Below, piece by piece: positions 21,011 through 43,979 of a stretch of 64,000 bases of DNA; position 1 is the stretch's first letter, and every line of letters starts with the position of its first letter. A program made the position numbers and the translations under genes. The notes below the pieces were generated by a model. That model worked only from the letters and a program-made list of their open reading frames with translations, searched no databases and was not told where the DNA came from. Source of the stretch: Pseudomonas lutea (GTDB taxonomy: Bacteria; Pseudomonadota; Gammaproteobacteria; Pseudomonadales; Pseudomonadaceae); contig NZ_JRMB01000001.1 of the NCBI RefSeq assembly GCF_000759445.1, positions 2,046,001 to 2,110,000 of the forward strand, read 5' to 3'.

Positions 21011-21031
21011 GTCAGGTATCTCGGTCAAACG

Positions 21032-22732: not shown

Positions 22733-22761
22733 GAAGCATCCTTGCAATAGCATAGTGATAT

Positions 22762-22990: not shown

Positions 22991-23479
22991 TCAGTGCCGC
23001 AGCAACTTGCGCAACGGCACTCCATCCTTGAGCACAGGCGATTTGATCACGATGTAGCTGAAGTACTTCGAGATGCCTATGTTTTTGTCGAGCAGGCTTT
23101 CCACTACCTCCTGATAGTGCTGAATGCTGCGCGTCATAAAGCGCACCAGGTAGTCGTAGCCGCCGCTAATGAGGTGGCATTCGAGGACTTCGTCAACCAG
23201 GCGGATGTTGGATTCGAACTTGGCGAAGTCTTCGCGCTTGTGGTCACTGAGGGTGATTTCGGTAAAGACGGTGACCGAGTCGGTGATCTTGGCCAGGTTC
23301 AGATGCGCTTTGTAGCTGGAGATATAACCGGCCGATTCAAGCCGTTTGACCCGTTGCAGGCACGGGCTGGCAGACAGACCGACAGCATCGGCAAGGCTGA
23401 CGTTGGTCATCCGGCCGTCCTTCTGCAGTTCGACCAGGATGCTGATGTCGATCCGATCCAGTTTTACGAGCCCTTCCAT
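22991..23479 (-). CDS. Lrp/AsnC-family transcriptional regulator
   Basis: A 162-residue regulator of the usual Lrp/AsnC length. The N-terminal winged helix-turn-helix reads LDRIDISILVELQKDGRMTN and LADAVGLSASPCLQRVKRLE; the C-terminal RAM ligand-binding domain includes EVLECHLISGGYDYLVRF. The ATG at 23479 has AGAGG at suitable distance; the much longer frame upstream is a shadow of the HAD gene. Such regulators respond to amino acids. Its place at the downstream end of the catabolic island (44 bases behind the HAD gene) suggests that it controls these genes, like BkdR or DoeX for their operons; this is inference. Confidence 0.93.
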   Translation of the reverse strand: MEGLVKLDRIDISILVELQKDGRMTNVSLADAVGLSASPCLQRVKRLESAGYISSYKAHLNLAKITDSVTVFTEITLSDHKREDFAKFESNIRLVDEVLECHLISGGYDYLVRFMTRSIQHYQEVVESLLDKNIGISKYFSYIVIKSPVLKDGVPLRKLLRH

Positions 23480-23523
23480 CACGTACCTCTTGACTGCCGT
23501 TGTAAGACAATCTTCTAGCAAAA

Positions 23524-24198
23524 TCAGCGCCGTAAAGACAGCTGATGCTGCGCCACCAGATCGGCCATGCTGTTGATGCAGTACTCGGCCGCACACGGCG
23601 ATGGCTGACGCGCCCGGTGGCGGCCGATCAAGCAGCGGTCCAGCGCGGCGAAGGGCTCGACCGACGGTCGGGTCACGTGCAGGACCGGTTGCACCTGATC
23701 GCCCTGATCGATGAGCCATTGCGGACCTTCGGCCAGGGAAATGAAATCTTCCGGTGCAATTCCCAGTCGCTCGCACAGAAGGTCGCGGTCCTCGGCATCG
23801 CGGTCGCCGCGTACCAGCAGTCGATAAAACTTGCGCAGATACAGCATTGCGCCCGGCGCGTCTTCGAACAGTGACCAGTTGCCCGCCGAACGGGCGAAGC
23901 TCATGCCCTCCTCCCAACTGGCGTGCAAGCCCCACTTTTCGGCGAGCTGGCGATGGGCGAAACACAACATGCCACTGAAGCCCAGCTCGGCGAAACGGGG
24001 ATAAAGGGTGGCGATGACGGCGTTGAATTCTTCCAGTACCTGGTCTTTGGCCGGTCGACCGCCACGGCTGTCGAGCAGCGGGTGCAGCGCGGCCCAGACG
24101 CCCGAATCGCGATCCACCAGCACTTCGTCGCAATCAATAACCAGCGCTCTGTACTCTGTTAGCCCAATTCCGGTCAGCCCCAATTCTGTCAGCCCCAT
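23524..24198 (-). CDS. HAD-superfamily hydrolase
   Basis: A 224-residue haloacid-dehalogenase-superfamily protein. Motif I is VIDCDEVLVD with nucleophile and acid Asp near residues 21 and 23. A helical cap follows with GMLCFAHRQLAEKWGLHASW, and motif III-like and motif IV-like regions are less clear. The start at 24198 has AGGAGG ten bases upstream. An unusual short triplication (GLTELGLTGIGLTEY) forms the N-terminus before the Rossmann core. It lies between the aminotransferase (46-base gap) and the Lrp regulator and is probably co-transcribed with both. A phosphatase role is typical of the superfamily, the substrate unknown. Confidence 0.82.
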   Translation of the reverse strand: MGLTELGLTGIGLTEYRALVIDCDEVLVDRDSGVWAALHPLLDSRGGRPAKDQVLEEFNAVIATLYPRFAELGFSGMLCFAHRQLAEKWGLHASWEEGMSFARSAGNWSLFEDAPGAMLYLRKFYRLLVRGDRDAEDRDLLCERLGIAPEDFISLAEGPQWLIDQGDQVQPVLHVTRPSVEPFAALDRCLIGRHRARQPSPCAAEYCINSMADLVAQHQLSLRR

Positions 24199-24244
24199 GT
24201 GGATCAAACCTCCTGGACGCATCTGGCCCGTTGCGGGCAAAGCG

Positions 24245-25549
24245 CTACTTCGAATTCGAGTTCAAGACCCGTGCCAAGGCGGCGTCGAGGATCTGTAGGG
24301 CTTCGTCGACTTGGGCTTCGGTGGTCACCAGCGGCGCAAGGAAGCGCAGCACGTTGCGGTAGACGCCGCATTTGATGACCAGCAAACCGCCGGCGCGGGC
24401 CTCGTCGATCACCCGTGCATTAAGGTCGGCATCCGGGGTGCGCGCGGCATCATCCTTGATCAGTTCGATCGCCAGCATGAAGCCGGTGCCGCGTACATCG
24501 CCGATGCGCGGATAACGCGCTTGCAGGCCGAGCAGGCCCTGGCGCAGGCGTTCGCCCAGGAGTTGGCTGCGCGCCAGCAGTTGTTCTTCTTCAAACGCAT
24601 CGATCACCGCCAGACCTGCCGCGCAGGCCAGCGCGTTGCCGCCGTAGGTTCCGCCCAAGCCGCCGGGCAGTGGCGCGTCCATGATGTGTGCCTTGCCGAC
24701 TACCGCCGACAACGGCAAACCACCGGCAAGGCTTTTGGCCACGGTGACGAGATCAGGCTGAATGCCAGAGTGCTGGTAGCCGAACCAAGTGCCGGTGCGG
24801 CCGAAGCCGGTCTGGATTTCGTCGAGGATCAACACGATGCCGTGCTTGTCGGCCAAGGCGCGCAGGGCCTGGAGAAACTCCGGCGGCGCGGTGAGGAAGC
24901 CGCCGTCGCCCTGCACCGGTTCAATCAAGATGGCGGCGACGCGGTCCGGTGCCACTTGGGTAGCGAGCAATTCGTTCAGGGCATTGATTGCGTCAACACT
25001 GCTAACGCCGCGATACGCGTTCGGATACGGCGTATGGAACACCTCCGGCGCAAACGGCCCGAAGTTTTGCTTGTACGGTTGGCTCATGCCGGTCAGCGTG
25101 GTGCCGAGCAAAGTGCGTCCATGGAAGCCGCCACGAAAGGCGATAACCGCCGAACGATTGGTGTGGGCGCGGGCAATTTTCACCGCGTTTTCCACCGCTT
25201 CAGCGCCGGAGGTGAAGAATGCGGCCTTGTAGGCTTCCTGCCCGCCGATCATCTCGCACAGGCGCTGGGCCAAATCGAGATAAGGCGTGTAAGCCGCCAC
25301 CTGAAAACAGGCGTGGGAAACTTTTTGCAATTGCGCCTGCACCGCCGCGACCACTTTCGGATGGTTATGGCCAATGTTGAGCACGCCGATGCCGCCGACA
25401 AAGTCCAGGTAGCGCTTGCCATCCACGTCCCACAACTCGGTACCCTGGGCGCGGTCGATCACCAGCGGGTGCGCGGTCACCAGGCCACGGGGCACAAACT
25501 GCTCGCGCTGACGGAGCAAATGAGGGGTTTCGTCGACTTTGCTGTTCAT
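24245..25549 (-). CDS. Class III aminotransferase, 4-aminobutyrate aminotransferase-like
   Basis: A 434-residue PLP enzyme close in layout to GabT. Visible features are [37 protein letters not shown] (PLP phosphate binding), [23 protein letters not shown] (the Asp that binds the pyridine nitrogen) and the Schiff-base lysine in [15 protein letters not shown]. It would transfer the terminal amino group of an omega-amino acid such as GABA to 2-oxoglutarate. The start at 25549 (MNSKVDE) has GGGA six bases before it; the ATG at 25561 has none. It fits with the semialdehyde dehydrogenase encoded upstream in the same island. The true substrate may differ from GABA. Confidence 0.9.
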
Positions 25550-25762
25550 GGCATTTCCCATCGTGAGTCCGGCAACCGGGAGGCGGTTGCGATGCTGTCA
25601 GGTTACGGCGTGCGGGCAACGCACTTAGCCGAACTTGGCCCGTGAGACATTCGGATCAACTGTTTTGGCCCCGGCTTTCGACAGATCCTGCGTCGGGCTT
25701 GGGGGATGATGGTGCTTGCTCACATCAACCTCCCTTCCGCCTCTCTTTAGCAGGAAATGCCC
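25550..25762. promoter_or_regulatory. Divergent intergenic region between aminotransferase and ghrA-like gene
   Basis: A 213-base gap between divergent genes that should contain both promoters. The aminotransferase side has the GGGA ribosome site and the ghrA side AGGAA at 25752-25756. No clear operator is recognised; the Lrp-type regulator encoded nearby is a candidate binder by analogy only. Confidence 0.4.
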
Positions 25763-26689
25763 ATGGCCTTGCTTTACAAAGCCGACCCCGCGCGCGCGCC
25801 ACACTGGCGGATGCTGTTCGCTGAACATGCACCGGACATTGAGTGGCGCGCTTGGCCGGACATTGGCAATGCCGAGGAGATCGAGTATTTGGCAGCGTGG
25901 CAGGCGCCGGACAATCTGCAGCAGTTGCTGCCCAATCTGAAAGTGCTGTTTGCCTTGTCGGCAGGGGTCGATCAGTTGGATCTGTCGCGTTTGCCGGCGG
26001 ATCTGCCGGTGGTGCGTCTGCTGGATCCGGGCATCACGAGGGGGATGTGCGAGTACGCGACGTGGGCGGTGTTGAGTTTGCATCGGGATATGCTGCGGTA
26101 TCGCGAGCAGCAGGCGGCACGCTGTTGGCAGGCGCACCTGTTGCAACCCGCCGAGAACCGGCGTGTGGGGGTGATGGGGCTGGGCACCCAGGCGCAGCAG
26201 ATTCTGGCGACGCTGGCGCCGTTCGGGTTTGCGTTGTCGGGTTGGGCACGCAGTGTTCACGAGATTGAGGGGGTGACTTGTTTTGCGGGTCAGGCGCAGT
26301 TGGCGGCGTTTCTGGGGCAGTGCGATATGTTGCTGTGTGTGTTGCCGTTGACGGAGCAGACGGAAGGGATACTGGACCGGAATCTGTTTGCGTTGCTGCC
26401 GCGAGGCGCAGGGCTGATCAATATGGGGCGCGGCGGGCATCTGGTGGAGGAGGATTTGCTGGAGGCACTTGAGAGTGGGCAGTTGGGGGGTGCTGTTCTG
26501 GATGTGCTGCAGGTGGAGCCGGCGGCGGCGGATCATCCGTTCTGGGGTCACCCGCAGGTGGTGCTGACGCCGCATGTGGCGGCGATGACGCAGCCGGCCA
26601 GTGCATTCGGGGTGTTGCTGGAGAATATTAGGCGGTTTGAGCGGGGGGAGCGGATGGTGGGTGAGATTGATCGAAATCGGGGCTATTGA
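25763..26689 (+). CDS. ghrA: Glyoxylate/hydroxypyruvate reductase A-like D-2-hydroxyacid dehydrogenase
   Basis: A 308-residue D-isomer-specific 2-hydroxyacid dehydrogenase of GhrA length. The NAD(P)-binding site is GVMGLGTQAQQ. The catalytic triad of the family is visible as Arg in NMGRGGHLVEEDLL, Glu in VLQVEP and His in VLTPHVAAMT. It reduces 2-oxo acids such as glyoxylate or hydroxypyruvate. The ATG at 25763 is preferred over 25757 because the AGGAA site would touch the latter. It is the only plus-strand gene inside an otherwise minus-strand catabolic island. The second half uses noticeably more GGG, TTG and GCG codons than its neighbours, which may mean weak expression or separate origin. 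Substrate in this setting is uncertain. Confidence 0.87.
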   Translation: MALLYKADPARAPHWRMLFAEHAPDIEWRAWPDIGNAEEIEYLAAWQAPDNLQQLLPNLKVLFALSAGVDQLDLSRLPADLPVVRLLDPGITRGMCEYATWAVLSLHRDMLRYREQQAARCWQAHLLQPAENRRVGVMGLGTQAQQILATLAPFGFALSGWARSVHEIEGVTCFAGQAQLAAFLGQCDMLLCVLPLTEQTEGILDRNLFALLPRGAGLINMGRGGHLVEEDLLEALESGQLGGAVLDVLQVEPAAADHPFWGHPQVVLTPHVAAMTQPASAFGVLLENIRRFERGERMVGEIDRNRGY

Positions 26690-26977
26690 GTTTTCTTAGA
26701 TCGACATCGCTTGAGGCTCGACGCTTGTGGCGTTCCAACCGAAGCATCCGCGAGCAAGCTCGCTCCCACAGGGACGGGCATGAAACTTTGATCGTTCCCA
26801 CGCTCTGCGTGGTAACGCAGCCTCGGACGCTCCGCGTCCCTGTGGGACCGGCTTCAGCCGGGAAGAGGCCAGTCCAGTCGTGATCAATTTTTGGGGTGTG
26901 CCGTGTGACGCCTTCCCGGCTAAAGCCGGTCCCACTAAACATCAAAAGCCGGTCCCACTGAAACGCTGCCCGCGCCG
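26690..26977. repeat. Intergenic REP elements between convergent genes
   Basis: The 288-base gap between convergent ghrA-like and D-malate dehydrogenase-like genes contains several Pseudomonas palindromes. They are a CGCGAGCAAGCTCGCTCCCA element near 26747-26770 and two facing elements, TGTGGGACCGGCTTCAGCCG at 26840 and its inverse at 26913-26935, with a partial fourth copy near 26947. Between them lies the frequent companion sequence GTTCCCACGCTCTGCGTGG. No gene is seen. Confidence 0.85.
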
Positions 26978-28060
26978 CTAAACCAACCTCTCGGCAATCG
27001 CCGCCCCGACATCTTGCGTCGAGCCCTTCCCGCCCAGGTCCGGGGTAATCGGGCCTTGCGCAATCACTTCCTCAATGGCCCTCAATATCCCGTCATGGGC
27101 CGCGCGGTAGCGTTCGTCGCCGTTGCCGAGGAAGTCGAGCATTAGCGCGCCGGACCAGATCATCGCGATGGGGTTGGCGATGTTCTGCCCATAGATGTCC
27201 GGCGCAGAGCCATGCACCGGTTCGAACAGCGAGGGGAAACGCCGTTCCGGGTCGAGATTGGCCGAGGGCGCGATGCCGATGGTGCCGGCGCACGCCGGGC
27301 CGAGGTCGGACAGGATGTCGCCGAACAGATTCGACGCCACCACCACATCAAAGCGGTCCGACTGCAATACGAAGCGTGCGCACAAGATGTCGATGTGCTG
27401 CTTGTCCCACGTCACCTCGGGGTAGTTCGCCGCCATCAATGCCGTGCGCTCGTCCCAGTACGGCATGCTGATGGAGATGCCGTTGGATTTGGTCGCCGCC
27501 GTCAGGCATTTACGCGGGCGGGTCTGAGCGAGTTCGAAAGCGAATTTGAGGATGCGGTCGACGCCACGGCGAGTGAACACCGATTCCTGAAGCACGAACT
27601 CGTGGTCGGTGCCTTCGAACATCTTGCCGCCTACGGACGAATATTCGCCCTCGGTGTTCTCGCGGATCACCACGAAGTCGATGTCGCCCGGTTTGCGCCC
27701 CGCCAGCGAACAGGGTACGCCGGGGAACAGGCGTACCGGACGGATGTTCACGTACTGGTCGAAGTCCCGGCGAAACTTGAGCAAGGACCCCCACAGAGAA
27801 ATGTGGTCCGGGACCTTGTCGGGCCAGCCGACCGCGCCGAAGTAGATCGCGTCATAGCCTTTAAGCTGCTCGAACCAGTCATCGGGCATCATCTGCCCGT
27901 GCGCCAGGTAGTAGTCGCAGTGGGCCCAGTCGAGCACATCGATGCTCAGGTTCAGTTGCCATTTCCTGGCCGCCTGCTCCAGGACCCGCAACCCTTCCGG
28001 CAGGACTTCCTTGCCGATGCCATCGCCCGCAATTGCGGCGATTCTGAATGCCTTGCTCAT
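26978..28060 (-). CDS. D-malate/tartrate dehydrogenase (isopropylmalate-dehydrogenase family)
   Basis: A 360-residue NAD-dependent beta-decarboxylating dehydrogenase of the TtuC/DmlA branch. Supporting features are AAIAGDGIGKEVLPEG at the N-terminus, the substrate-binding Arg and Glu segment NIRPVRLFPGVPC with VIRENTEGEYSSVGG, the metal-binding Asp residues in FDVVVASNLFGDILSD, and FEPVHGSAPDI near the cofactor site. It converts D-malate or tartrate to pyruvate or oxaloglycolate derivatives with NAD. The start at 28060 has a G-rich stretch upstream but only a weak ribosome site. It lies 21 bases behind the aldehyde dehydrogenase and probably feeds C3/C4 products of the island into central metabolism. 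Confidence 0.92.
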   Translation of the reverse strand: MSKAFRIAAIAGDGIGKEVLPEGLRVLEQAARKWQLNLSIDVLDWAHCDYYLAHGQMMPDDWFEQLKGYDAIYFGAVGWPDKVPDHISLWGSLLKFRRDFDQYVNIRPVRLFPGVPCSLAGRKPGDIDFVVIRENTEGEYSSVGGKMFEGTDHEFVLQESVFTRRGVDRILKFAFELAQTRPRKCLTAATKSNGISISMPYWDERTALMAANYPEVTWDKQHIDILCARFVLQSDRFDVVVASNLFGDILSDLGPACAGTIGIAPSANLDPERRFPSLFEPVHGSAPDIYGQNIANPIAMIWSGALMLDFLGNGDERYRAAHDGILRAIEEVIAQGPITPDLGGKGSTQDVGAAIAERLV

Positions 28061-28081
28061 GCTGCGCCCCCCCGGGATGAA

Positions 28082-29542
28082 TCAGTTCAAGCCGCCGATG
28101 TGGAAGGCTTTGACTTCAAGGTACTCGTCCAGGCCGTATTTGCTGCCTTCGCGGCCGAGACCCGATTGTTTGATGCCGCCGAACGGCGCGACTTCCATCG
28201 AGATGATCCCGGTGTTGAGGCCGACCATGCCGAATTCCAGCGCCTCGCCAAAACGCCACGAGCGCTTGAGGTCCTGGGTGAAAAAGTAGGCGCCCAAGCC
28301 AAACGGGGTGGCATTTGCCAAGGCCAGCGCCTGGGCTTCATCAATAAAGCGCATCAACGGCGCCACCGGGCCAAAGGTTTCCTCATTCGCCAACAACATC
28401 CCGGCGTGGGCCTCAGCCAGCACAGTGGGTTGCACGAACTGGCTGTCGCCTGCGGGAATCGCGCCGCAGAGCAGTTTCGCGCCCTGACTCAGGGCATCGT
28501 CGATGTGCCGCGCCACCTTGCTGACCGCCGCAGGGTTGATCAGCGGGCCGATGGTCACGCCCTCTTCCAGGCCGTTGCCGACCTTGAGTTTGCCCACCTC
28601 CTCCACCAGTCGCGCGGCGAAGCGGTCGTAAATCCCCGCCTGCACCAGGATGCGGTTGGCGCACACGCAGGTTTGCCCGGCGTTGCGAAACTTGCTGATC
28701 ATCACCCCGGCCACGGCCTGTTCCAGGTCGGCGTCGTCGAACACCACAAACGGGGCGTTGCCGCCCAGTTCCAGACTCAGGCGCTTGATGTGTTCGGCGC
28801 TTTGGCGCATCAGCAGGCGGCCGACGGCAGTGGAGCCGGTAAATGAAATCTTGCGCACCGTCGGGTTGCCGGTAAGTTCTGCACCGATGCCGGCAGGCAT
28901 TCCGGTGAGGACGTTGAACACACCGGCTGGAATGCCGACGCGCTCGGCCAGGACCGCCAGCGCGAGGGCCGACAGCGGCGTGAGGTCAGACGGCTTGACG
29001 ATGACCGGGCAACCGGCAGCCAGCGCCGGGGCGCATTTGCGGGTGATCATCGCGTTGGGGAAATTCCACGGGGTGATCGCCGCGCAGACGCCCACGGGTT
29101 GCTTGAGGGTCAGCAGACGGCGGTCGCCACTGGGGGCCGGCATGGTTTCGCCGTAGACCCGGCGCGCTTCTTCCGCGAACCATTTGACGAAGCCGGCGCC
29201 GTAGCGGACCTCGCCCTTGGCCTCGTTCAGCGGCTTGCCCTGCTCGCAGGTCATGATCAGCGCGAGGTCGTCGAGGTGGTCGATCATTGCCTGGAACCAG
29301 CGCTCCAGCAGCGCCGCGCGTTCTGCCGCCGGCCGCGCCCGCCAGGCCGGCCAGGCGAGTTCGGCCGCTTCGATGGCGCGGCGGGTATCGATTGCGTCCA
29401 TGGCCGGGAGCTGCGCAAGCAGGTCGCCCGTGGCGGGGTCGCGGACTTCAAGGGTAGCGCCGCTGTCGGCGGCGATCCACTCACCATTTACGTAAGCGCG
29501 TTCAGCCAGCAGGCCGGGGTCTTGCAAGCGATTCTTGAGCAT
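28082..29542 (-). CDS. NAD(P)-dependent succinate-semialdehyde dehydrogenase-like enzyme
   Basis: A 486-residue aldehyde dehydrogenase whose motifs match the GabD branch: ITPWNFPNAMITRKCAPALA, the general base Glu in LELGGNAPFVVF and the nucleophile in GQTCVCANRILVQ, where the CVC arrangement is typical of GabD. The N-terminus AYVNGEWIAADSGATLEVRDP is complete. The ATG at 29542 has AGGA at good distance. It oxidises succinate semialdehyde or a related omega-semialdehyde to the acid, the step after the class III aminotransferase of the same island. The gap to the M20 deacetylase gene upstream is 117 bases, so a separate promoter is possible. Confidence 0.92.
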   Translation of the reverse strand: MLKNRLQDPGLLAERAYVNGEWIAADSGATLEVRDPATGDLLAQLPAMDAIDTRRAIEAAELAWPAWRARPAAERAALLERWFQAMIDHLDDLALIMTCEQGKPLNEAKGEVRYGAGFVKWFAEEARRVYGETMPAPSGDRRLLTLKQPVGVCAAITPWNFPNAMITRKCAPALAAGCPVIVKPSDLTPLSALALAVLAERVGIPAGVFNVLTGMPAGIGAELTGNPTVRKISFTGSTAVGRLLMRQSAEHIKRLSLELGGNAPFVVFDDADLEQAVAGVMISKFRNAGQTCVCANRILVQAGIYDRFAARLVEEVGKLKVGNGLEEGVTIGPLINPAAVSKVARHIDDALSQGAKLLCGAIPAGDSQFVQPTVLAEAHAGMLLANEETFGPVAPLMRFIDEAQALALANATPFGLGAYFFTQDLKRSWRFGEALEFGMVGLNTGIISMEVAPFGGIKQSGLGREGSKYGLDEYLEVKAFHIGGLN

Positions 29543-29659
29543 GGTCGAGTCCTGATCCGAGACAGATTCCAGTCTAGGGATCTGGCTCGGCGGAGGATGC
29601 CGAAAGCGCCTTCAAACCAGCGTGCCGTGCTGAAATTCAACGCAGGACGGCAGGCTCTG

Positions 29660-30817
29660 CTACGCCTTCAGCGAGCCCAGCAAACCTTGCAAAAAGCGTT
29701 CACCGGCGTCCATCTGGCTGACCTCGATAAACTCGTCCGGCTTGTGCGCCTGCTCGATGGACCCCGGGCCACACACCACCACCGGCACATCGAGGCGCTG
29801 CTTGAACAGGCCGCCTTCGGTACCGAACGAGACCTTGTTCATGCCGGTGTCCGGCGCGGCAAATTGCTTGAGGAAGCTCACCGCCTCGACGGTGGGGTGG
29901 GTGTCGAGACCAGGGTAGACGTTGATGGTTTCGATCTCGATGGCCGCCACGCTCGAAAGCTTCTGCGCCTCACGCACAATCACTTCGGCACGCTCGCGCA
30001 TCTGCTCGATGAATTGATCCAGGTTATCCGCCGGCAGGTTGCGCACTTCGAAATCCAGGGTGCACAGGTTCGGCACGATGTTCAGCGCCTTGCCGCCGCT
30101 GATCTGGCCGACATGCACGGTGCTGTAGGGCACGTCGTAGTCGGTGTCCTGCGCGCCGTGGTGTTGCAGGTGCTGCTGGCTTTCCCGCAGGGAAGCGATG
30201 AAGTCACAGGCCACGTGAATGGCGTTGACCGAACGCGGCGCCAGCGACGAATGCGCCTCCTGGCCCCGACAATGGGTGCGGTAGGAGCCCTTGCCCTTGT
30301 GGCCCAGGACGAACTGCATGTTGGTCGGTTCGCCGACCACGCAGAGAAACGGCCGCACAGGGGTCAGGTGCAGCACGTCGAGCAAGCGTCGCACGCCCAC
30401 GCAACCGATCTCCTCGTCATGGGACAACGCCAGTTGCAGCGGGCGGTTGAGTGAGTGCTCTGCCGCGTCGAGCATGGTGTCGATGGCCAGGGCGATGAAG
30501 CCCTTCATGTCGCAGCTGCCACGGCCATAAATTCGCCCGTCCTGCACGGTGGCGGCGAACGCTGGAAAGGTCCATGCCTGCCCCGCCGCCGGCACCACGT
30601 CGGTGTGCCCGGAGAGCAGCACGCCGGGCTGGTCCTTCGGCCCGGTGCTGGCGAACAGGTTGGCTTTTTTGCCACTCGCGTCCTTGACGATCAGCGACTC
30701 GACGCCCTTGCTGAGCAGCAGGTCGCGGACGTACTCGATCAACGCCATGTTGGACTCTGACGACACCGTTTCGAAGGCCATCAGCCGTTTGAGAATCTCG
30801 AGGACGCGGGGTTTCAT
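29660..30817 (-). CDS. M20-family deacetylase, acetylornithine deacetylase (ArgE)-like
   Basis: A 385-residue zinc hydrolase of the M20/ArgE family. The first metal motif is LSGHTDVVPA (His plus catalytic Asp), followed by GRGSCDMKGFIAL, LALSHDEEIGCVG with the catalytic Glu-Glu pair, and a C-terminal His in CGPGSIEQAHKPDE. It removes an acyl group from an amino acid nitrogen in the cytoplasm. The ATG overlaps the stop of the upstream FAD-oxidase gene (ATGA). As part of this catabolic operon it may deacylate an imported N-acyl or opine-like compound rather than serve arginine synthesis; that is inference from context. Confidence 0.9.
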   Translation of the reverse strand: MKPRVLEILKRLMAFETVSSESNMALIEYVRDLLLSKGVESLIVKDASGKKANLFASTGPKDQPGVLLSGHTDVVPAAGQAWTFPAFAATVQDGRIYGRGSCDMKGFIALAIDTMLDAAEHSLNRPLQLALSHDEEIGCVGVRRLLDVLHLTPVRPFLCVVGEPTNMQFVLGHKGKGSYRTHCRGQEAHSSLAPRSVNAIHVACDFIASLRESQQHLQHHGAQDTDYDVPYSTVHVGQISGGKALNIVPNLCTLDFEVRNLPADNLDQFIEQMRERAEVIVREAQKLSSVAAIEIETINVYPGLDTHPTVEAVSFLKQFAAPDTGMNKVSFGTEGGLFKQRLDVPVVVCGPGSIEQAHKPDEFIEVSQMDAGERFLQGLLGSLKA

Positions 30818-33356: not shown

Positions 33357-33646
33357 GTCGCCTCCGGTTGTGTGGTGACGATGTCCAGACCGTCGCGGAC
33401 CTCATTGGAGCAGGCTCGCAGGCGTTCACCGCCACGGGTCCAGACCCAGCAATCCTGACAGGCGCCCATCAGGCAGAAACCGGCACGGCGGCCGCTGTCG
33501 AATTCCGACTGGCGCAGCGCGTTACCCTGGGTCAGCAACGCCACCATCAGCGTGTCGCCCTGCAATGCTTCGACCGGCGTGCCATCCACGGTCAGCCTGA
33601 CCGTCGGCCGGCCCTGTTCGGCCAGCCTCACAAAACGCCCTTTCAT
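33338..33646 (-). CDS. Small [2Fe-2S] ferredoxin-like subunit (HcnA/OoxX-like)
   Basis: A 102-residue protein with a ferredoxin-type fold. The cluster ligands follow C-x4-C-x2-C-x12-C in FCLMGACQDCWVW and LRACSNEV, and the upstream GDTLMVALLTQG matches HcnA-type subunits. The ATG at 33646 overlaps the stop of the ABC ATPase gene (ATGA). It completes a three-subunit flavin/iron-sulfur dehydrogenase with the next two genes and would pass electrons from substrate towards the respiratory chain. The name HcnA is given for architecture only: the surrounding importer and catabolic genes do not fit cyanide synthesis. Confidence 0.88.
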   Translation of the reverse strand: MKGRFVRLAEQGRPTVRLTVDGTPVEALQGDTLMVALLTQGNALRQSEFDSGRRAGFCLMGACQDCWVWTRGGERLRACSNEVRDGLDIVTTQPEATWPLHS

Positions 33647-35484
33647 GCATATGCTCCCAAGCTGGTAAGGGTAACGCCGCGCTGGGTGGCCAGCAGATCG
33701 GCGCCGTCGCGGTGACAGAGGATTTCGCTGCCGTTGTCCAGCGTGCGGCGCTTCGGCGCGGTCCGGTTGCACAGGCCGTCGACGCGCACCGGGCAGCGAT
33801 TGAGGAAGGTGCACAGCTCAGGCAGGTTGGCCCGCTCGCCGATCGGAGGCAGCTCGCCATGGGTGGCGCCGCAGGTTTCCAGCCAGCCCTGGCGCAGTTC
33901 CGGCACCGAGTGAATGAGCAGGTCGGTGTACGGATGGTACGGTGCCTCGGTAAACGACTCGCGGCGGCCGGCGTGGACTTTGTGGCCGCTGTACATCACC
34001 ACGATGTCGTCGCACAGCGCGCGCACGGTGGAGATGTCATGGCTGATAAACAGGTAGGACACCCCCAGTTGCTGACGCAGGTCGCGCAACAGTTCGAGAA
34101 TCGCCGCGCCGACCACCGTGTCGAGGGCCGAGGTGACTTCATCGCAGAGGATCAGGTCGGGCTTGGCCGCCAGCGCCCGGGCCAGATTGACCCGCTGTTT
34201 CTGCCCCCCGGACAGCTCGTTGGGCCGGCGGTCGGCCATGTCCCGCGGCAGGCGCACCAGGTCGAGCAGCTCGCCGATACGCGCCTGCAACGCCGCCCCC
34301 TTCAGGCCGAAATACATTTTCAGCGGACGGCTGAGGATGGTTGCGACGCTGTGCATCGGATTGAGCGCTGTGTCGGCGTTCTGGAAGACCATCTGGATCC
34401 GCCGAAACTGCTCCGGCGTGCGCTCGGACAGGCTGCCACCCAAGGGCTGGCCGTCAAACGTAAGCGCGCCGAGGGCCGGGGTCAGCAGCCCCGCCACTAC
34501 CCGCGCCAGGGTTGATTTGCCCGAACCCGACTCACCGATCACGCCAATGGCCTGACCCCGACGCACCGTCAGGTCGATGTCTTCGAGCACGCGGATGGCC
34601 GGCATGCCGTGCAGGTTTTTGTTGCCGTAGCCGGCGGTCAGGCCTGAGATGGTCAGCAACGGCGCCTCTTCGGCGACGCCGCAGGGCGGGCGAATGCGCG
34701 TGTCGGGGCGCGCCGCCGCCAGCAGGCTGCGGGTGTAATCGTGGGCCGGCGCCTTGAGCAGCGGCGCGGTGGCGCTTTGTTCAAGGATCTGCCCACCGTT
34801 GAGCACGACAATCTGGTCGGCCATTTGCGCGACCACCGCCAGGTCGTGGGACACGTAGACCGCCGTGGCGCCGCGCTCACGCACCACACGCTTGAAGGCC
34901 CGCAGCACGTCGATCTGGGTGGTCACGTCCAGCGCCGTGGTCGGCTCATCGAGCACCACCAGCAACGGGTCGCTGATCAGCGCCATCGCCGCCATCACCC
35001 GTTGCAGTTGCCCGCCGGACACCTGGTGCGGGTAGCGACGGCCGATGCGTTCCGGGTTCGGCAAGGCCAGGTCGTGGAACAGGCCGATGGCCTTGGCTTC
35101 CAGCTCCGCGCGGGTGCCGAGGCCATGGATCAAGGGGCCTTCCACCACTTGATCGAGGAGTTTTTTCGCCGGATTGAACGCTGCAGCAGCGCTTTGCGCG
35201 ATGTAGGACACGCGATTGCCGCGCAGGCCCTGCAGCTGTTTTTCGCTCAGGGCGAGCATGTCGTGGTCGCCGACCTGCACCACGCCGCCGGACAACCGGC
35301 AGCCGCGCCGCGCATAACCGAGCAAGGCCAGGGCAATCGTGGTTTTGCCGGAGCCGGACTCGCCTATCAGTGCCAGCACTTCGCCTCTTTCAAGGGCAAA
35401 GCTAAGCCCTTTGACGATTTCAACCTCTTGGCCCGGATCACCGGCTACCACGCGCAAGTCTTCGACGCGAATCAATTGAGTCAT
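33643..35484 (-). CDS. Dual ATP-binding protein of a dipeptide/opine-type ABC importer (DppD-DppF fusion)
   Basis: A 613-residue protein with two complete ABC domains. The first has Walker A GESGSGKTT, signature VSGGQLQR and Walker B LLVVLDEPTTALD. The second, from about residue 275, has GESGSGKST, LSGGQKQR and LILCDEVTSALD. Each ends with the oligopeptide-type extension rich in Cys and Pro (LCTFLNRCPVRVDGLCN in the second), which may bind an iron-sulfur cluster as in other Opp-type ATPases. The ATG at 35484 has GGAGG eight bases before it. It sits one base after the permease stop. Fusion of the D and F ATPases is common in this transporter class (GsiA-like). Confidence 0.93.
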   Translation of the reverse strand: MTQLIRVEDLRVVAGDPGQEVEIVKGLSFALERGEVLALIGESGSGKTTIALALLGYARRGCRLSGGVVQVGDHDMLALSEKQLQGLRGNRVSYIAQSAAAAFNPAKKLLDQVVEGPLIHGLGTRAELEAKAIGLFHDLALPNPERIGRRYPHQVSGGQLQRVMAAMALISDPLLVVLDEPTTALDVTTQIDVLRAFKRVVRERGATAVYVSHDLAVVAQMADQIVVLNGGQILEQSATAPLLKAPAHDYTRSLLAAARPDTRIRPPCGVAEEAPLLTISGLTAGYGNKNLHGMPAIRVLEDIDLTVRRGQAIGVIGESGSGKSTLARVVAGLLTPALGALTFDGQPLGGSLSERTPEQFRRIQMVFQNADTALNPMHSVATILSRPLKMYFGLKGAALQARIGELLDLVRLPRDMADRRPNELSGGQKQRVNLARALAAKPDLILCDEVTSALDTVVGAAILELLRDLRQQLGVSYLFISHDISTVRALCDDIVVMYSGHKVHAGRRESFTEAPYHPYTDLLIHSVPELRQGWLETCGATHGELPPIGERANLPELCTFLNRCPVRVDGLCNRTAPKRRTLDNGSEILCHRDGADLLATQRGVTLTSLGAYA

Positions 35485-35485
35485 A

Positions 35486-36361
35486 TCAATGGCCTCCCGA
35501 GCGCCGACCACGTCGGGACGACAGGTAGTCGATCAGCAGATTGACGCCGATGGTCAGCGTGCCAATGGCCAGCGCCGGAATGATGATCGCCATTGCGCCC
35601 TGATTGAGGCCGCCGATGTTTTCCCGCACCAGCGAACCCAGGTCGGCGTCCGGCGGCTGCACGCCAAGGCCCAGAAAGCTCATGCCGCTGAGCAACAGCA
35701 CGATGTAGCCGAAACGCAGGCCCAGGTCCGTCAGCACCGGATTGAGCATGTTTGGCAGAATTTCACGGCACGCCACGTACAACTTGCTTTCGCCCCGGGT
35801 GCGCGCCACTTGCACGTATTCGAGCGCTTCGATGTTCACCGCCATGCTGCGGGCCACCCGAAACGAACCGGGGATGTAACTGATGACCGCCGTGCAGATC
35901 AGCAGCGTGACTGACGAGCCAAATGCCGAGACCATGATCAACGCGAGCATTTTGCTGGGGATCGATATGAAGGCGTCCATGATCCGGCTGATGATTTCGT
36001 CCAGCCACTTTGGCGACACCACTGACAGCAGCGCGCAACCGGTGCCCAAGGTGCTGGCCAACAGCGCCGCCACCAGCGACAGGCCGACGGTGAAGCGCGC
36101 GCCCACCAGCACCCGGCTGAGCATGTCGCGGCCCAGGTAGTCGGTGCCGAACGGATGCGCCAGCGTGAAGCCTTCAAAGATGTTGTCGGAGATCACTTCG
36201 CCGACCGGGTGCGGCGCCACCCAAGGACCCAACAGCGCCACCAACAGCCAGATCACGCAGACGGCGGCGCCGACCAGCCCCAGCCAGGGCGGGTTGCCGG
36301 AGACTTTGGCCAGGGCCAGAGCAGAAGATGCAGGCCTGGATTTCGCAATGAGCGGGTTCAT
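35486..36361 (-). CDS. ABC importer permease (DppC-like)
   Basis: A 291-residue inner-membrane permease. An N-terminal membrane segment (GLVGAAVCVIWLLVALLGPW) precedes the OppC-type loop HPFGTDYLGRDMLSRVLVGAR and further helices; the EAA-like coupling loop is within ALEYVQVARTRGESKLYVAC. The ATG at 36361 overlaps the TGA of the DppB-like gene (ATGA); the longer frame upstream is a shadow. It pairs with the DppB-like permease to form the channel of the importer. Confidence 0.93.
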   Translation of the reverse strand: MNPLIAKSRPASSALALAKVSGNPPWLGLVGAAVCVIWLLVALLGPWVAPHPVGEVISDNIFEGFTLAHPFGTDYLGRDMLSRVLVGARFTVGLSLVAALLASTLGTGCALLSVVSPKWLDEIISRIMDAFISIPSKMLALIMVSAFGSSVTLLICTAVISYIPGSFRVARSMAVNIEALEYVQVARTRGESKLYVACREILPNMLNPVLTDLGLRFGYIVLLLSGMSFLGLGVQPPDADLGSLVRENIGGLNQGAMAIIIPALAIGTLTIGVNLLIDYLSSRRGRRSGGH

Positions 36362-37314
36362 TGGTTTCTCAGCCTCGGGTTGGAGAGGATGGCGCACAGG
36401 TCGGCAAGTAAGACCAACGCCAGATAGGCCGCGCAGAACAGCATGGTGCAGGCTTGCACCAGGGCCATGTCGCGGTTGGTTACGGCATCGACCATCAGGC
36501 TGGCGATGCCGGGGTAATTGAAGATGGTCTCGACGATCACCACCCCGCCCAGCAGGTACGACAGGCTCAGGGCGATGGCGTTGGCAATCGGTCCAATCGC
36601 GTTGGGCAGGGCGTGCCGCAGCACGATGCGGATCGGGCTCACGCCTTTGAGACGGGCCATTTCTACGTAGGGGCTGTCGAGCTGGTCGATGACGGCAGCG
36701 CGGGTCATGCGCGCCATTTGCGCCACAATCACGCAGCACAGGGTCATCACCGGTAAGGCATAAGTACGCAAAAACTGCAGCGGCGAGGTGATGTCGGTGG
36801 CATAGGACAGCGCCGACAGCCAACCGAGGTTGACCGCGAAAATCAGCACCGCCAGGGTCGCCACCAGAAACTCCGGCACCGCGACCATGGCCAGGGTGAT
36901 GAAGCTCAGGCAGCTGTCGATGCGCCCGCCCCGGCCCATGGCCGAACCGATGCCGAGGATCAGCGCCAGAGGCACAGACACCAGCGCCGTGGCCGCCGCC
37001 AGCATCAGCGTATTCGGCACGCGGCCGGCCATCAATTCACCCACCGGCATGGCGTTGGACACCGACTGGCCCATGTCGCCGGTCAGCAGGCTCATCAACC
37101 AGTGCAGATAGCGCAACACGCCGGGTTGATCGAGCCCCAGTTTCAGGCGCAGCGCCGCCACCTGTTCCGGGGTGGCGAACTGACCGAGGGATTGCTGCGC
37201 CGCGTCGCCCGGCAGCACGGCCGTGATCGCGAAGACGACCATCGACACGATCAATAAGGTCACGATCCCGGCACCGAAGCGCCGGCAGATCAACCACAGC
37301 GTATGGCTATTCAT
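36358..37314 (-). CDS. ABC importer permease (DppB-like)
   Basis: A 318-residue inner-membrane permease of the OppB/DppB family. The first helix is FGAGIVTLLIVSMVVFAITAVL, followed by the typical periplasmic segment LPGDAAQQSLG and about five more membrane helices; the coupling loop reads SPYVEMARLKGVSPIRIVLR. It starts at 37314, 12 bases after the binding-protein stop. Operon order (binding protein, B, C, fused D/F) is canonical for peptide, nickel or opine importers. Confidence 0.93.
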   Translation of the reverse strand: MNSHTLWLICRRFGAGIVTLLIVSMVVFAITAVLPGDAAQQSLGQFATPEQVAALRLKLGLDQPGVLRYLHWLMSLLTGDMGQSVSNAMPVGELMAGRVPNTLMLAAATALVSVPLALILGIGSAMGRGGRIDSCLSFITLAMVAVPEFLVATLAVLIFAVNLGWLSALSYATDITSPLQFLRTYALPVMTLCCVIVAQMARMTRAAVIDQLDSPYVEMARLKGVSPIRIVLRHALPNAIGPIANAIALSLSYLLGGVVIVETIFNYPGIASLMVDAVTNRDMALVQACTMLFCAAYLALVLLADLCAILSNPRLRNQ

Positions 37315-37326
37315 CGCACAGCCTCC

Positions 37327-38964
37327 TCAAGCGTCCAGCCACACCTGTTCGGCGAACATGTAACCCATGAAGCCGCCCAGCGGGTTAGAGTCGTAGCCCT
37401 TGATGCGCTGGTCGACGCCGTCGATGTTGCTGATGAACACCGGTACGCCGATGCCGCAGTGATCGTGAACCAGCGTTTGCATGTCGCCATACATCCTGGC
37501 GCGCTTGGCGTCGTCGGTTTCGCCCCGTGCCAGCATCAGCAACTGGTCAAACTGGTCGTTCTGCCACCCGGACTCGTTCCACGGCGCCTTGGACTGGAAG
37601 AACTGGGAGAACATCACGTCGGCGTTCGGCCGCGGGTTGATGTTGCCGAAACTCAACGGGTGCTTCATCCAGTGGTTGGACCAATAGCCGTCGCTGGGCA
37701 GACGGTTCACGTCCAGCTTCAGCCCGGCCTGTTTCGCCGACTGCTGCAGCAGCACGGCGATGTCCACCGAACCGGTGGCGGCAGGCGACGCCATGACCGG
37801 CATGGTGATGCTTTCCATGCCGGCCTTCTTCAGCAGGAACCTGGCTTTTTCAGGGTCGTAAACGGTCTGCGGCAAGTCAGTGTTGAAGTAGCGCGACCCT
37901 GGGGCAATCGGGTGATCGTTGCCGACCACGGCGAAGCCACGGAACACGGCTGACTTGACCTGTTCGCGGTCCAGCAACAGCTTCATGGCCTGGGTGAATT
38001 CCGGGCTTTTGCCGGGCAACTGGTCTTGGCGAATGATCAAATCAGTGTAGTTGCCCGACGGTGCATCGACGACGCGGTGCTTGGGGCTGGCAGCAATGCG
38101 CGTGGTGGAGCGCGGGTTAACCTCGTTGATCATGTGTACGTCGCCGGACAGCAGCGCGTTGACCCGCGATGGCTCGTCGCCAATGGCGATGAACTCGATC
38201 TCGTCGAGGTACGGCAGGCCCGGTTTCCAGTAGTTCTTGTTGCGCACGGCCACCGAACGGACACCCGGCTTGAACTCGCCGACGGTAAACGGCCCGGTGC
38301 CGATGCCTTTGTTGAAGTCGGTGGTGCCCTCGGGAACGATCAGCAGGTGTGACACGGCGAGGATCGACGGCAGTTCGGCGTTCGCGGCGCTGAGGCGAAT
38401 CTGCACCTCGTTAGGGCCGGTGGCCTTGATCTCGGCAAACTGCTCCATCAGCGGCATGACTTTGGAACCGGTCAGCGGGTCCTTGTGGCGGCTGAGGGAG
38501 AACACCACGTCGGCGGCGCTGAGGCCTTTGCCGTTGTGGAACGTCACGTCCTTGCGCAAGGTGATGGTCCACAGCGTGGCATCTACGTTGTCGATGCGCT
38601 CGGCCAGCTCCAGCTGCGGCACCAGATGCTTATCGAAACGGGTCAGGCCGTTGTAGAACATGTACTGACGGGCATAGTCGGTGGACAACGCACCCTTGGC
38701 CGGGTCGAGGGTGTCGGCGGTGGAACTGGACATGCCGGCCACACGAATCTTGCCGCCAGGCTTGCCCTTGCCGCCGGCGGTGGCTTCTTCGGCGAACAGT
38801 TTGCCGGCGCTGCCGAACAGGCTGCCCGCCCCCGCTGCAGCGACGCCAGCCAGGCCGAGCATCTGCAAGGCGTTGCGCCGCGACATGCCGCGATTGAGGC
38901 CTTCAAATACCCGCAGGCTGTCTGGGCCGGAGATAAGCTCGGGGGTGTCTTTGTGGTCAGTCAT
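37327..38964 (-). CDS. Periplasmic substrate-binding protein, family 5, Tat-exported
   Basis: A 545-residue SBP_bac_5 protein. Export is by the Tat pathway, judging from SRRNALQMLGLAGVAAAG near residues 28-45, preceded by an unusually long hydrophilic N-region. The mature part has family features such as DTLDPAKGALSTDYARQ, LRKDVTFHNGKGLSAADVVFSL and GTGPFTVGEFKPG. It captures the substrate for the importer encoded next. Family members bind peptides, opines, glutathione or nickel, so the ligand cannot be assigned. The start at 38964 has AGGT upstream. Confidence 0.92.
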   Translation of the reverse strand: MTDHKDTPELISGPDSLRVFEGLNRGMSRRNALQMLGLAGVAAAGAGSLFGSAGKLFAEEATAGGKGKPGGKIRVAGMSSSTADTLDPAKGALSTDYARQYMFYNGLTRFDKHLVPQLELAERIDNVDATLWTITLRKDVTFHNGKGLSAADVVFSLSRHKDPLTGSKVMPLMEQFAEIKATGPNEVQIRLSAANAELPSILAVSHLLIVPEGTTDFNKGIGTGPFTVGEFKPGVRSVAVRNKNYWKPGLPYLDEIEFIAIGDEPSRVNALLSGDVHMINEVNPRSTTRIAASPKHRVVDAPSGNYTDLIIRQDQLPGKSPEFTQAMKLLLDREQVKSAVFRGFAVVGNDHPIAPGSRYFNTDLPQTVYDPEKARFLLKKAGMESITMPVMASPAATGSVDIAVLLQQSAKQAGLKLDVNRLPSDGYWSNHWMKHPLSFGNINPRPNADVMFSQFFQSKAPWNESGWQNDQFDQLLMLARGETDDAKRARMYGDMQTLVHDHCGIGVPVFISNIDGVDQRIKGYDSNPLGGFMGYMFAEQVWLDA

Positions 38965-39070
38965 ATCAGGCTACCTGTCGATGATCGGGATATTCGAGTG
39001 CTCACGGATGTCCGGAGCGTCCTGGAAACGCAAACGACGGTGACGCTACAGCGGCGAGTCAGTGCATGAT

Positions 39071-40345
39071 TCAGTGCAGATAGTCCTGCAAGCGGTAATA
39101 GGCGCCCACAAACGGCAGAAACCAGGGCTTGCCGAAGTGCCCGGGGATCGCCGGCCATTCCAGCTCACGCCAGGGATTGGCCGCTGCGTTGCCGGCCATG
39201 ACCTCAGCCATGACCTGGCCCATGTGCACCGACATCTGCACGCCATGGCCGCTGTAACCCATGGAATGAAACACGCCGCCGTGCTGGCCGGCGCGGGGCA
39301 GACGGTCGGACGTCATGTCCACCAGGCCGCCCCAGCAATAGTCGATCTTCACGTCGGCCAATTGCGGGAACATCTGAAGCATTGCCGCCTGCAGCACCTT
39401 GCCGCTCTTGGCGTCGGACACGCCGTCGGACATGGCAAACCGCGCGCGGCCGCCAAACAGCAGGCGGTTGTCCGGGGTCAGGCGGAAGTAGTTGCCGATC
39501 ATCCGGCTGGTGACGTACGCCCGATGCTGCGGCAACAACTGGTCGATCAGCGCCTGAGGCAAGACTTCGGTGGCGATGACAAAACTGCCCACCGGCACGA
39601 TCCGCCGGCGGTACCAGCCAAGGTCCCCGTGCTGGCAAGCGCCGGTCGCCAACAGCACCTGACCTGCCTGCAGCGAACCCTTGGCGGTGTTGACCTGATA
39701 ACCGCCAGCCTTGGGCTTCCAGTCCTTGACCGGGGTGTGTTCGTAGACCATTGCGCCGCGGCGGGCAGCGGCTTCCGCCAGCCCGACACCAAAACGGCCG
39801 ACGTGCATCTGAACGCCATTACGCTGCAACAAGCCACCGTGAAACTGCGCCGAGTTGACTTCGGTACGGGTTTGCTCGGCATTCAGCAGCTCGACATCGG
39901 CGTCCACCTCCTGACGGATCAGCTCGCAGGTGCGAGCCAGGCCTTCGTAATGCAGGGGTTTGGCCGCCAGTTTGAGCTTGCCGTTGCGCACCAGATCACA
40001 AGAGATTGCTTCCTGCTCGACCAGCGAAACCACGGTCTGCACCGCGCTTTCATACGCCTGGTAATAGGCTCGCGCTTTGGCCGCACCGAGGCTGGCGCGC
40101 AGACCGGCGTAGTCCTGCGCCACGCCGGTATTGCACTGCCCGCCGTTGCGCCCCGAGGCTTCGCCGATCACGCGACCGGCGTCCAGCACCACCACGCTGG
40201 CACCCTTGAGCGCTAACGCACGTGCTGCCGACAGGCCGGTGAATCCACCCCCGATCACGGCCACGTCGACCTGCCCGGGCAAGCCGCCGAGTTGGGCACC
40301 GGTGAAGGCCGGTGCGGTGTCGAGCCAATAGGATTCACTGCCCAT
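39071..40345 (-). CDS. FAD-dependent oxidoreductase, gamma-glutamylputrescine oxidase (PuuB/OrdL)-like
   Basis: A 424-residue DAO-family flavoprotein. The FAD motif is VDVAVIGGGFTGLSAARALA (about residues 27-46), followed by ASGRNGGQCNTGVAQ, the conserved stretch typical of PuuB/OrdL and sarcosine-oxidase relatives, and the C-terminal GYSGHGVQMSVHMGQ. It oxidises an amine or N-substituted amino acid to imine with release of aldehyde or keto acid and hydrogen peroxide. It lies 106 bases upstream of the binding-protein gene. A second, unrelated-subunit amine-oxidising system in the same island suggests a multi-step oxidation of one imported compound. Confidence 0.9.
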   Translation of the reverse strand: MGSESYWLDTAPAFTGAQLGGLPGQVDVAVIGGGFTGLSAARALALKGASVVVLDAGRVIGEASGRNGGQCNTGVAQDYAGLRASLGAAKARAYYQAYESAVQTVVSLVEQEAISCDLVRNGKLKLAAKPLHYEGLARTCELIRQEVDADVELLNAEQTRTEVNSAQFHGGLLQRNGVQMHVGRFGVGLAEAAARRGAMVYEHTPVKDWKPKAGGYQVNTAKGSLQAGQVLLATGACQHGDLGWYRRRIVPVGSFVIATEVLPQALIDQLLPQHRAYVTSRMIGNYFRLTPDNRLLFGGRARFAMSDGVSDAKSGKVLQAAMLQMFPQLADVKIDYCWGGLVDMTSDRLPRAGQHGGVFHSMGYSGHGVQMSVHMGQVMAEVMAGNAAANPWRELEWPAIPGHFGKPWFLPFVGAYYRLQDYLH

Positions 40346-40400
40346 CTTTAACCCCTTGCGTCAAAACCTGCGTGCCGAAAACCGGTAGACGGTGCCTGAG

Positions 40401-41069
40401 TTACAGCCCCACCAGCGCCGGCAGTCCGCCGATGTCGGTAATTTGCTGATACTCGAAGAACGCATTCGCCGGTACTTCATGCCCACGGGCCACGAAGGCC
40501 TTGTGCTTGATCTTCATGTCGTGGGCCGACATCAGGTCGTAACGGAAGCTGGAAGACACATGCAAGATGTCTTCCGGGCCGCAGCCGAGGTTGTCGAGCA
40601 TGAACTCGAACGCGGCCAGACGTGGCTTGTAGGCCTGGGCCTGTTCGGCGGTGAAGACCTTGTGGAACGGCGCGCCGAGCTTGTCGACGTTGGACATGAT
40701 CTGGCTGTCGCTGGCATTGGAGAAGATCACCAGGGGAATCTTGTCGGCGATCTTCGACAGACCGGCCGGCACGTCGGCATGGGGACCCCAGGTCGGCACG
40801 GCGTCGTAATACAGCTGGCCTTCATCACGGTACTCCACGCCCCAACGTTTGCAGGTTCGGGCCAGGGCGGTCTTGAGAATGACGTCGTAGGGCTGCCAGT
40901 CGCCCATTACCTGGTCGAGCCGGTAGGCCGAAAAGTCTTTGACGAACTGGTCCATCTGTTCAGGCTTGACGCGGTCGGCGAACAGCTCGCGGGTCATGGT
41001 GCCCATGTGGAAGTTGGTGAGCGTGCCGTAGCAGTCGAACGTAATGAATTTGGGACGAAGAAAGCTCAT
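40401..41069 (-). CDS. Haloacid dehalogenase, type II-like HAD hydrolase
   Basis: A 222-residue HAD enzyme resembling L-2-haloacid dehalogenases. Motif I is FITFDCYGTLTNF with nucleophile Asp near residue 11, motif II VIFSNASDSQI and motif III in AEQAQAYKPRLAAFEF; motif IV is SSSFRYDLMSAHDM instead of the usual acid pair, as in type II dehalogenases. The ATG at 41069 has AGGA about ten bases upstream; the extension to 41144 is not supported. It is the first gene of the minus-strand island. Activity on haloacids is not certain, since many relatives are phosphatases or serve amino-acid-linked pathways. Confidence 0.88.
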   Translation of the reverse strand: MSFLRPKFITFDCYGTLTNFHMGTMTRELFADRVKPEQMDQFVKDFSAYRLDQVMGDWQPYDVILKTALARTCKRWGVEYRDEGQLYYDAVPTWGPHADVPAGLSKIADKIPLVIFSNASDSQIMSNVDKLGAPFHKVFTAEQAQAYKPRLAAFEFMLDNLGCGPEDILHVSSSFRYDLMSAHDMKIKHKAFVARGHEVPANAFFEYQQITDIGGLPALVGL

Positions 41070-43810: not shown

Positions 43811-43979
43811 GCGTCGGCAGTTACACCGCAAAACTGATGGCGCGCACGCCGCCGGATTCAGCAGATTCTCCCTTGCAGGCTGCAACAACGGCATCTTTCG
43901 CCTGGGCCGGTTTGTTAGCGTATGAGGACGTTTGAACGGGCTGTTCGCAGCACTTTTTCCGCTCCAGGGAGCTCACCGG

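Follow-up and report, generated by a model that had tools for sequence, protein, structure and literature searches.

HcnABC-type trimers are known as cyanide synthase and as oxidases of opines and D-hydroxyproline. The hydrolase of Pseudomonas sp. A2C converts L-azetidine-2-carboxylate to 2-hydroxy-4-aminobutyrate, which is then transaminated, and in Aspergillus nidulans the compound is assimilated via γ-aminobutyrate (GABA) enzymes, with a GNAT acetyltransferase aiding detoxification (excerpt of PMC8016842). The gene block described here lies at positions 22991-41069 of a 64,000-nt stretch of Pseudomonas lutea DNA (contig NZ_JRMB01000001.1), the whole of which is called the window, and it brings known enzyme families together in an undescribed catabolic combination. 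It is tentatively read as serving the catabolism of an opine-like amino-carboxylate that contains azetidine-2-carboxylate, the favoured candidate being a plant metallophore (nicotianamine, 2'-deoxymugineic or mugineic acid).

Pfam and NCBIfam profile scores confirmed in the block every gene named by a sequence-only reading of the window, which had proposed that a conjugated amino compound is imported, oxidised at its C-N bond, omega-transaminated and fed into metabolism at the malate level. This scheme fits the present findings, but the substrate guess was a broad one (opine-like compound or GABA derivative), and three genes had been left out, namely the HAD hydrolase genes HAD1 and HAD2 and a GhrA-like gene; the two HAD genes are the best clue to the substrate. 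The name 'PuuB' for the flavin adenine dinucleotide (FAD) oxidase was not confirmed: among NCBIfam profiles it matches L-pipecolate oxidase best, with a score well under the cut-off, and only membership of the DAO family stands. From position 41069 downward, the minus strand encodes HAD1, the DAO-type oxidase, a binding protein, two permeases, fused ATPases, HcnA/B/C-like subunits, an M20 hydrolase, GabD and a tartrate/D-malate dehydrogenase; the genes from binding protein through M20 overlap or are closely spaced. The GhrA-like gene lies on the plus strand, divergent from GabT-HAD2-Lrp. The HcnABC-type trimer (Fer2_4, FAD/NAD plus BFD, and DAO subunits) is encoded in one operon with overlapping genes (30814-33646). 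The family 5 ATP-binding cassette (ABC) importer is complete, with SBP_bac_5, two permeases and two ATPase domains, and its binding protein bears an SRR signal, presumably of the twin-arginine translocation (Tat) type, in which R29 and R30 are invariant (6/6 aligned).

The association of these genes is more than chance. Among 298 Pseudomonas genomes searched, an HcnB orthologue (≥65% identity) occurs in 54, the window's own included, and HAD1 in 66; all 54 HcnB genomes have HAD1, and 12 HAD1 genomes are without an HcnB orthologue. After the orthologues, the matches listed comprise one second copy at 61%, the rest being paralogues at 50-54%. The block is not split among unrelated operons within Pseudomonas, a point on which the sequence-only reading had staked itself: all ten core genes, in identical order and strand, occur in 50 of the 53 foreign HcnB loci fetched. 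The other three are each short of one gene at the thresholds used, owing to a contig end, a permease whose 54% identity misses the threshold of 55%, and a poorly covered HcnC. HAD1 and the DAO oxidase occur together in 53/53. The fetched stretches end at 20 kb or at contig ends, so the outer genes are counted as lower bounds: GabD in at least 50, GhrA in at least 38, tartrate dehydrogenase in at least 37, GabT in at least 30, and Lrp and HAD2 in at least 22 each. Named loci found with HcnB carry all ten core genes in 23 of 24 cases (order not scored), the other one being cut by a contig end; the carriers include P. graminis, P. viridiflava, P. marginalis, P. cedrina and P. fluorescens FW300-N2E3, the last of which (L084) also has GabD, the tartrate dehydrogenase, GhrA, GabT, HAD2 and Lrp. 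As a control, four loci with HcnB paralogues displayed HcnABC and a weak ABC match only, with none of the other block genes.

Beyond the genus, 398 genomes across the phylum were searched; HAD1 was found in 28, 24 of them outside Pseudomonas, and the 24 non-Pseudomonas loci, chosen on HAD1 alone, were examined by tblastn in neighbourhoods of up to 20 kb. Near HAD1 lie GNAT in 22 loci, the DAO oxidase and an aldehyde dehydrogenase in 21 each, the family 5 importer in 19 and GhrA in 18, followed by a class III aminotransferase (15), Lrp (11), an HAD of the azetidine-hydrolase clade (11), tartrate dehydrogenase (10), the L-amino-acid-deaminase-like enzyme FAD2 (10), M20 (8) and a hydroxyaspartate-type pair (2). 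These counts make HAD1, together with the oxidase, the GNAT enzyme, an aldehyde dehydrogenase and the importer, the constant heart of the block. HcnABC is not part of it, because it lies near HAD1 in only one of the 24 loci; the trimer is present in the window just as the sequence-only reading described, but it is not the defining piece, since other HAD1 loci often replace or lack it. Linkage to iron uptake was considered and rejected: TonB receptors adjoin plasmid loci of Massilia, Sphingobium and Variovorax, yet none of the 24 unbiased loci has one (two query receptors). Annotated plasmids with overlapping gene sets are found in Paraburkholderia sprentiae, Acidovorax, Massilia, Sphingobium and Sinorhizobium meliloti (pSymA). 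The S. meliloti tags SMa1850-SMa1869, which may correspond to the block, occur in one table of PMC12542648. A 58.6% relative of HAD1 is present in MT835842.1, a human-faecal sequence filed as 'Bacteriophage sp.' that is perhaps bacterial DNA.

The catalytic residues of HAD1 are conserved: Asp12 and Ser/Thr121 in 111/111 aligned HAD1 sequences, and Lys152 and Asp185 each in 110/111, the remaining one being a gap. Position 14, two after the nucleophile and taken here as the place of the phosphatase D+2 acid, is Tyr (109) or His (2), and that acid is thus missing. The best PDB matches of HAD1 are 8hp5 and 3smv, and its sequence scores are higher for azetidine hydrolase (71/66 bits) as compared to epoxide hydrolases and dehalogenases (45 and lower). 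In fold comparison azetidine hydrolase is tied with dehalogenases, the Foldseek top match is cis-epoxysuccinate hydrolase, and HAD1 scores over the cut-off for haloacid dehalogenase type II (TIGR01428; Table 1). The rhizobial HAD of the block has azetidine hydrolase as its best PDB match and is specifically closest to it, with the catalytic residues kept (12/12). Among 31 HAD2 sequences, Lys152 is replaced by Asp in 25 and Thr16 by Val in 30, the Asp185 region is missing in all 31, and the nucleophile Asp is retained in 30; HAD2, in the window and in its copies in other Pseudomonas loci, is predicted from these changes to be a conserved pseudo-enzyme. An HAD tree places HAD2 on the azetidine-hydrolase side with respect to HAD1; built without a dehalogenase outgroup and carrying a long-branch warning, it shows nothing more.

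The best PDB relative of FAD2 is L-amino-acid deaminase (196 bits), an N-Cα oxidiser. Of 68 Pseudomonas loci compared over 20-kb stretches, 4 were dropped for want of HAD1 or the oxidase; of the remaining 64, 53 have HcnABC only, 9 FAD2 only, 2 neither and none both, so that FAD2 is present in 9/11 blocks without HcnABC. Outside Pseudomonas, 37 loci, five of them originally chosen by HcnB, left 29 with both HAD1 and the oxidase after 8 were dropped; 6 of these have HcnABC, 5 FAD2 and 18 neither in the stretch examined. Clean mutual exclusion was rejected at the level of whole genomes, where FAD2 occurs in 11/54 HcnB genomes as compared to 9/12 with HAD1 only. In four genomes FAD2 is near the HcnABC block: it adjoins the block's HAD1 in G208, and lies about 9 kb away in G185 and G224 and about 22 kb away in G082. 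L064, one of the dropped loci, and L088, a named one, also have both enzymes. In HcnABC-block genomes FAD2 tends to lie close to a second HAD1 copy (G094, G066, G219, G208, G185, G224). The pattern weakly hints that FAD2 may carry out the same N-Cα step as HcnABC; the hint is weak because of the HcnB genomes that also carry FAD2, in four cases close to the block and often beside a second HAD1, and because the loci are related by descent.

To the gene content, synteny, family membership and HAD1 residue conservation observed above, we add an inferred substrate, individual reactions and a reaction order. Azetidine chemistry is considered probable, and a plant metallophore as substrate is held more tentatively. 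The compound would be taken up by the Tat-exported binding protein and the Opp/Nik-type importer, and the HAD1 Asp would attack C2, opening the four-membered ring to give (2R)-4-amino-2-hydroxybutyrate or an N-substituted form. The N-Cα bond of the secondary amine would be oxidised by HcnABC, or in some blocks by the L-amino-acid-deaminase-like FAD enzyme, and the N-CH2 bond by the DAO-type oxidase; the C-N bonds of metallophores suit one enzyme of each kind. Once the omega-amino group is free, GabT would remove it, the two aldehyde dehydrogenases would produce malate/aspartate-level acids, GhrA would interconvert 2-oxo and 2-hydroxy acids, and the D-malate-type dehydrogenase would form pyruvate. 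Intermediates that are toxic or prone to cyclise may be acetylated by GNAT and deacetylated by M20, and Lrp may sense the substrate. A (2R) product, as in the title of PDB entry 8hp7, could proceed to D-malic semialdehyde (GabT), D-malate (GabD) and pyruvate (D-malate dehydrogenase), a chain that appears to match three families scoring over curated cut-offs. Of the succinate- or malate-level endpoint proposed earlier, the malate level is retained; a (2R)-hydroxy intermediate accounts for the D-malate-type dehydrogenase better than a succinate-level GABA route does. Mugineic acids are synthesised from nicotianamine (part of PMC7786132). A bolder proposal, possible but more doubtful, is a dedicated nicotianamine/mugineic-acid pathway widespread in Pseudomonas, Burkholderiales, Sphingomonadales and rhizobia, in which HAD1 opens the N-substituted azetidine of the intact chelator and lineage add-ons, such as a hydroxyaspartate-type dehydratase/reductase pair, serve hydroxylated mugineic acids. 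A threonine-dehydratase/ornithine-cyclodeaminase-family pair, EutB/EutC- or BhcB/BhcD-like (under cut-offs), occurs in L064, L098, L100, L101, L111, L121 and L132, and could, judged by its families, act on hydroxyaspartate from such acids.

Detoxification and assimilation of free L-azetidine-2-carboxylate or a small derivative, with the extra flavoenzymes handling side products, is an unlikely explanation of the block. The azetidine hydrolase-GABA route and fungal GNAT acetylation of the compound are already known (PMC8016842, in part), but such a substrate needs no family 5 importer, HcnABC, second oxidase or second aldehyde dehydrogenase, and the close association of the DAO oxidase with HAD1 in 21/24 loci outside Pseudomonas is against it. 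Another C4 amino-carboxylate, whether of the ectoine/2,4-diaminobutyrate or hydroxyaspartate type or a GABA conjugate as in the sequence-only reading, is unlikely, as the HADs would be without a role. Ectoine clusters hold Lrp, a class III aminotransferase and a semialdehyde dehydrogenase, and some blocks carry the EutB/BhcB and EutC/BhcD family pair with all scores under curated cut-offs; however, this pair occurs in only 2/24 unbiased loci. Ectoine utilisation as such was rejected, since no M24 ectoine hydrolase was found among the block proteins scanned by Pfam (the two permeases by NCBIfam only).

A ring-less opine-type metallophore or opine (staphylopine/pseudopaline-like or octopine-like), with another job for HAD1, is likewise unlikely: two HAD genes and the D-malate-type dehydrogenase would be left without a role, and HcnABC is often missing from HAD1 loci. 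Opines are indeed oxidised by HcnABC-type trimers, and the fused ATPase passes the cut-offs for NikE and NikD but falls slightly under those of staphylopine CntD/CntF, these whole-protein scores being inflated by the sum of two domains; but the binding protein is far below the NCBIfam cut-offs for CntA (45.9 of 800) and NikA (144.6 of 600). Taken alone, an opine or a GABA derivative was rejected as the substrate, since it leaves the HADs without a role. Very improbable is a halogenated or epoxide acid route, in which HAD1 would be an L-2-haloacid dehalogenase or cis-epoxysuccinate hydrolase feeding D-2-hydroxyacids or tartrate to the tartrate dehydrogenase. The TIGR01428 score, the fold tie with dehalogenases, the first Foldseek match and the family name tartrate dehydrogenase agree with it, but the importer, amine dehydrogenase and oxidase, aminotransferase and acetyltransferase are then unexplained, and the sequence match to epoxide hydrolase is the weaker one (45 vs 71 bits).

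Several observations weigh against the metallophore interpretation itself. HAD1 is only 29% identical to L-azetidine-2-carboxylate hydrolase, and the window's own genome has no close member of the azetidine-hydrolase clade. M20 and GNAT lack a firm place in the route, and in P. sprentiae the stretch of the block that was seen includes an M14 gene but not M20. HAD1 copies without the block (75-87%) occur at L133, L136 and L139; Vibrio and Tara labels are also among the HAD1 relatives, the label P. putida stands on 2 of the 120 HcnB relatives listed, a strain of that species having failed to degrade phytosiderophores, and the whole-genome co-occurrence of FAD2 and HcnB belongs here as well. The SBW25 study in PMC7786132 reports four iron-responsive genes of other kinds than those of the block, and compared iron levels, not phytosiderophore. 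The first part of the mutated-gene section of PMC8905175 lists scattered SBW25 genes, the block not among them. In 2021 the genes of phytosiderophore metabolism were called unknown (part of PMC7786132), and apart from the candidates of that study no described gene set for nicotianamine or phytosiderophore degradation was found in the open literature searched, subscription papers being outside the search and most hits being judged from their listings.

The features are collected in Table 1. GNAT, the cupin and the second aldehyde dehydrogenase (ALDH2) are counted as extended members because other Pseudomonas carry them inside or beside the block (GNAT and cupin inside in L034, ALDH2 in L041). 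Composition does not mark the block as foreign DNA (GC content 63.4% vs 61.8% for the window), and a promoter/terminator scan revealed no excess. A 123-bp tandem repeat (2.2 copies, 98% matches; window 43539-43809) lies between the cupin and ALDH2. A two-partner secretion pair adjoins the Lrp gene (window 7310-22753, minus strand), comprising an FhaC/ShlB-type transporter and a 4572-aa frame, probably its exoprotein, and a VgrG bearing a C-terminal Tle1-like phospholipase domain is encoded at window 59554-63492 (plus strand).

Table 1. Block genes and extended members, with window coordinates and profile evidence (score vs cut-off).
Feature	Position	Strand	Evidence and remarks
HAD1, HAD type II hydrolase	40401..41069	-	first gene of long operon; TIGR01428 161.3 vs 125.4
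DAO-family FAD oxidase ('PuuB-like')	39071..40345	-	PF01266
Family 5 substrate-binding protein, Tat-like SRR signal	37327..38964	-	PF00496 (SBP_bac_5)
ABC permease 1 (Opp/Nik type)	36358..37314	-	NCBIfam
ABC permease 2	35486..36361	-	NCBIfam
Fused double ABC ATPase	33643..35484	-	PF00005 in two stretches, PF08352 (oligo_HPY)
HcnA-like [2Fe-2S] subunit	33338..33646	-	PF13510 (Fer2_4)
HcnB-like FAD/NAD subunit with BFD [2Fe-2S] domain	31965..33356	-	PF07992 (Pyr_redox_2), PF04324 (Fer2_BFD)
HcnC-like FAD amine dehydrogenase subunit	30814..31968	-	PF01266 (DAO); PDB relatives are sarcosine/glycine oxidases
M20 acetylornithine-deacetylase-type hydrolase	29660..30817	-	TIGR01892 (AcOrn-deacetyl) 358.5 vs 297.7
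GabD-type semialdehyde dehydrogenase	28082..29542	-	TIGR01780 673.7 vs 646.35
Tartrate/D-malate dehydrogenase family enzyme	26978..28060	-	TIGR02089 544.4 vs 470.4
GhrA-like 2-hydroxyacid dehydrogenase	25757..26689	+	PF02826; NCBIfam GhrA 228.8, under cut-off 403
GabT-type class III aminotransferase	24245..25549	-	TIGR00700 527.9 vs 506.65
HAD2, degenerate HAD	23524..24198	-	closest to the clade of azetidine-2-carboxylate hydrolase; has lost the catalytic Lys and the final Asp
Lrp/AsnC regulator	22991..23479	-	PF01037, PF13412
GNAT acetyltransferase, extended member	41591..42442	+	divergent from HAD1; in 32/53 fetched Pseudomonas stretches (≤20 kb)
EutQ-like cupin, extended member	42463..43176	+	in 13/53 fetched Pseudomonas stretches (≤20 kb)
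Second aldehyde dehydrogenase (ALDH2), extended member	43932..45443	+	PF00171; in 6/53 fetched Pseudomonas stretches (≤20 kb)

If the metallophore interpretation is true, it provides named genes and marker strains for chelator degradation, and a genomic marker of rhizosphere bacteria that compete with plants for the plants' own chelators. Even with another azetidine substrate, azetidine degradation, so far a matter of a detoxifying enzyme, would come to include a complete catabolic operon.

As compared to the described systems, the block resembles those of the azetidine hydrolases of Pseudomonas sp. A2C (PDB 3smv, 8ywo) and A. nidulans (AzhA) in pairing an HAD hydrolase with GABA-type downstream enzymes and in its proposed product, 2-hydroxy-4-aminobutyrate; those systems act on the free amino acid, whereas the block clusters an importer, amine dehydrogenases, malate-level enzymes and a second HAD family. 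Its trimer shares three subunits and identical domains with HcnABC-type dehydrogenases but has different neighbours, the listed 50-54% HcnB paralogues lying elsewhere, four of them fetched without other block genes. The importer has the binding protein, two permeases and ATPases of the Opp/Nik/Cnt family 5 systems, and differs from them in its fused ATPase, its Tat-like signal and a binding protein below the NikA and CntA cut-offs. With ectoine clusters the block has in common an Lrp/AsnC regulator, a class III aminotransferase and a semialdehyde dehydrogenase; unlike them, and with ectoine hydrolase not found, it carries HAD and FAD enzymes.

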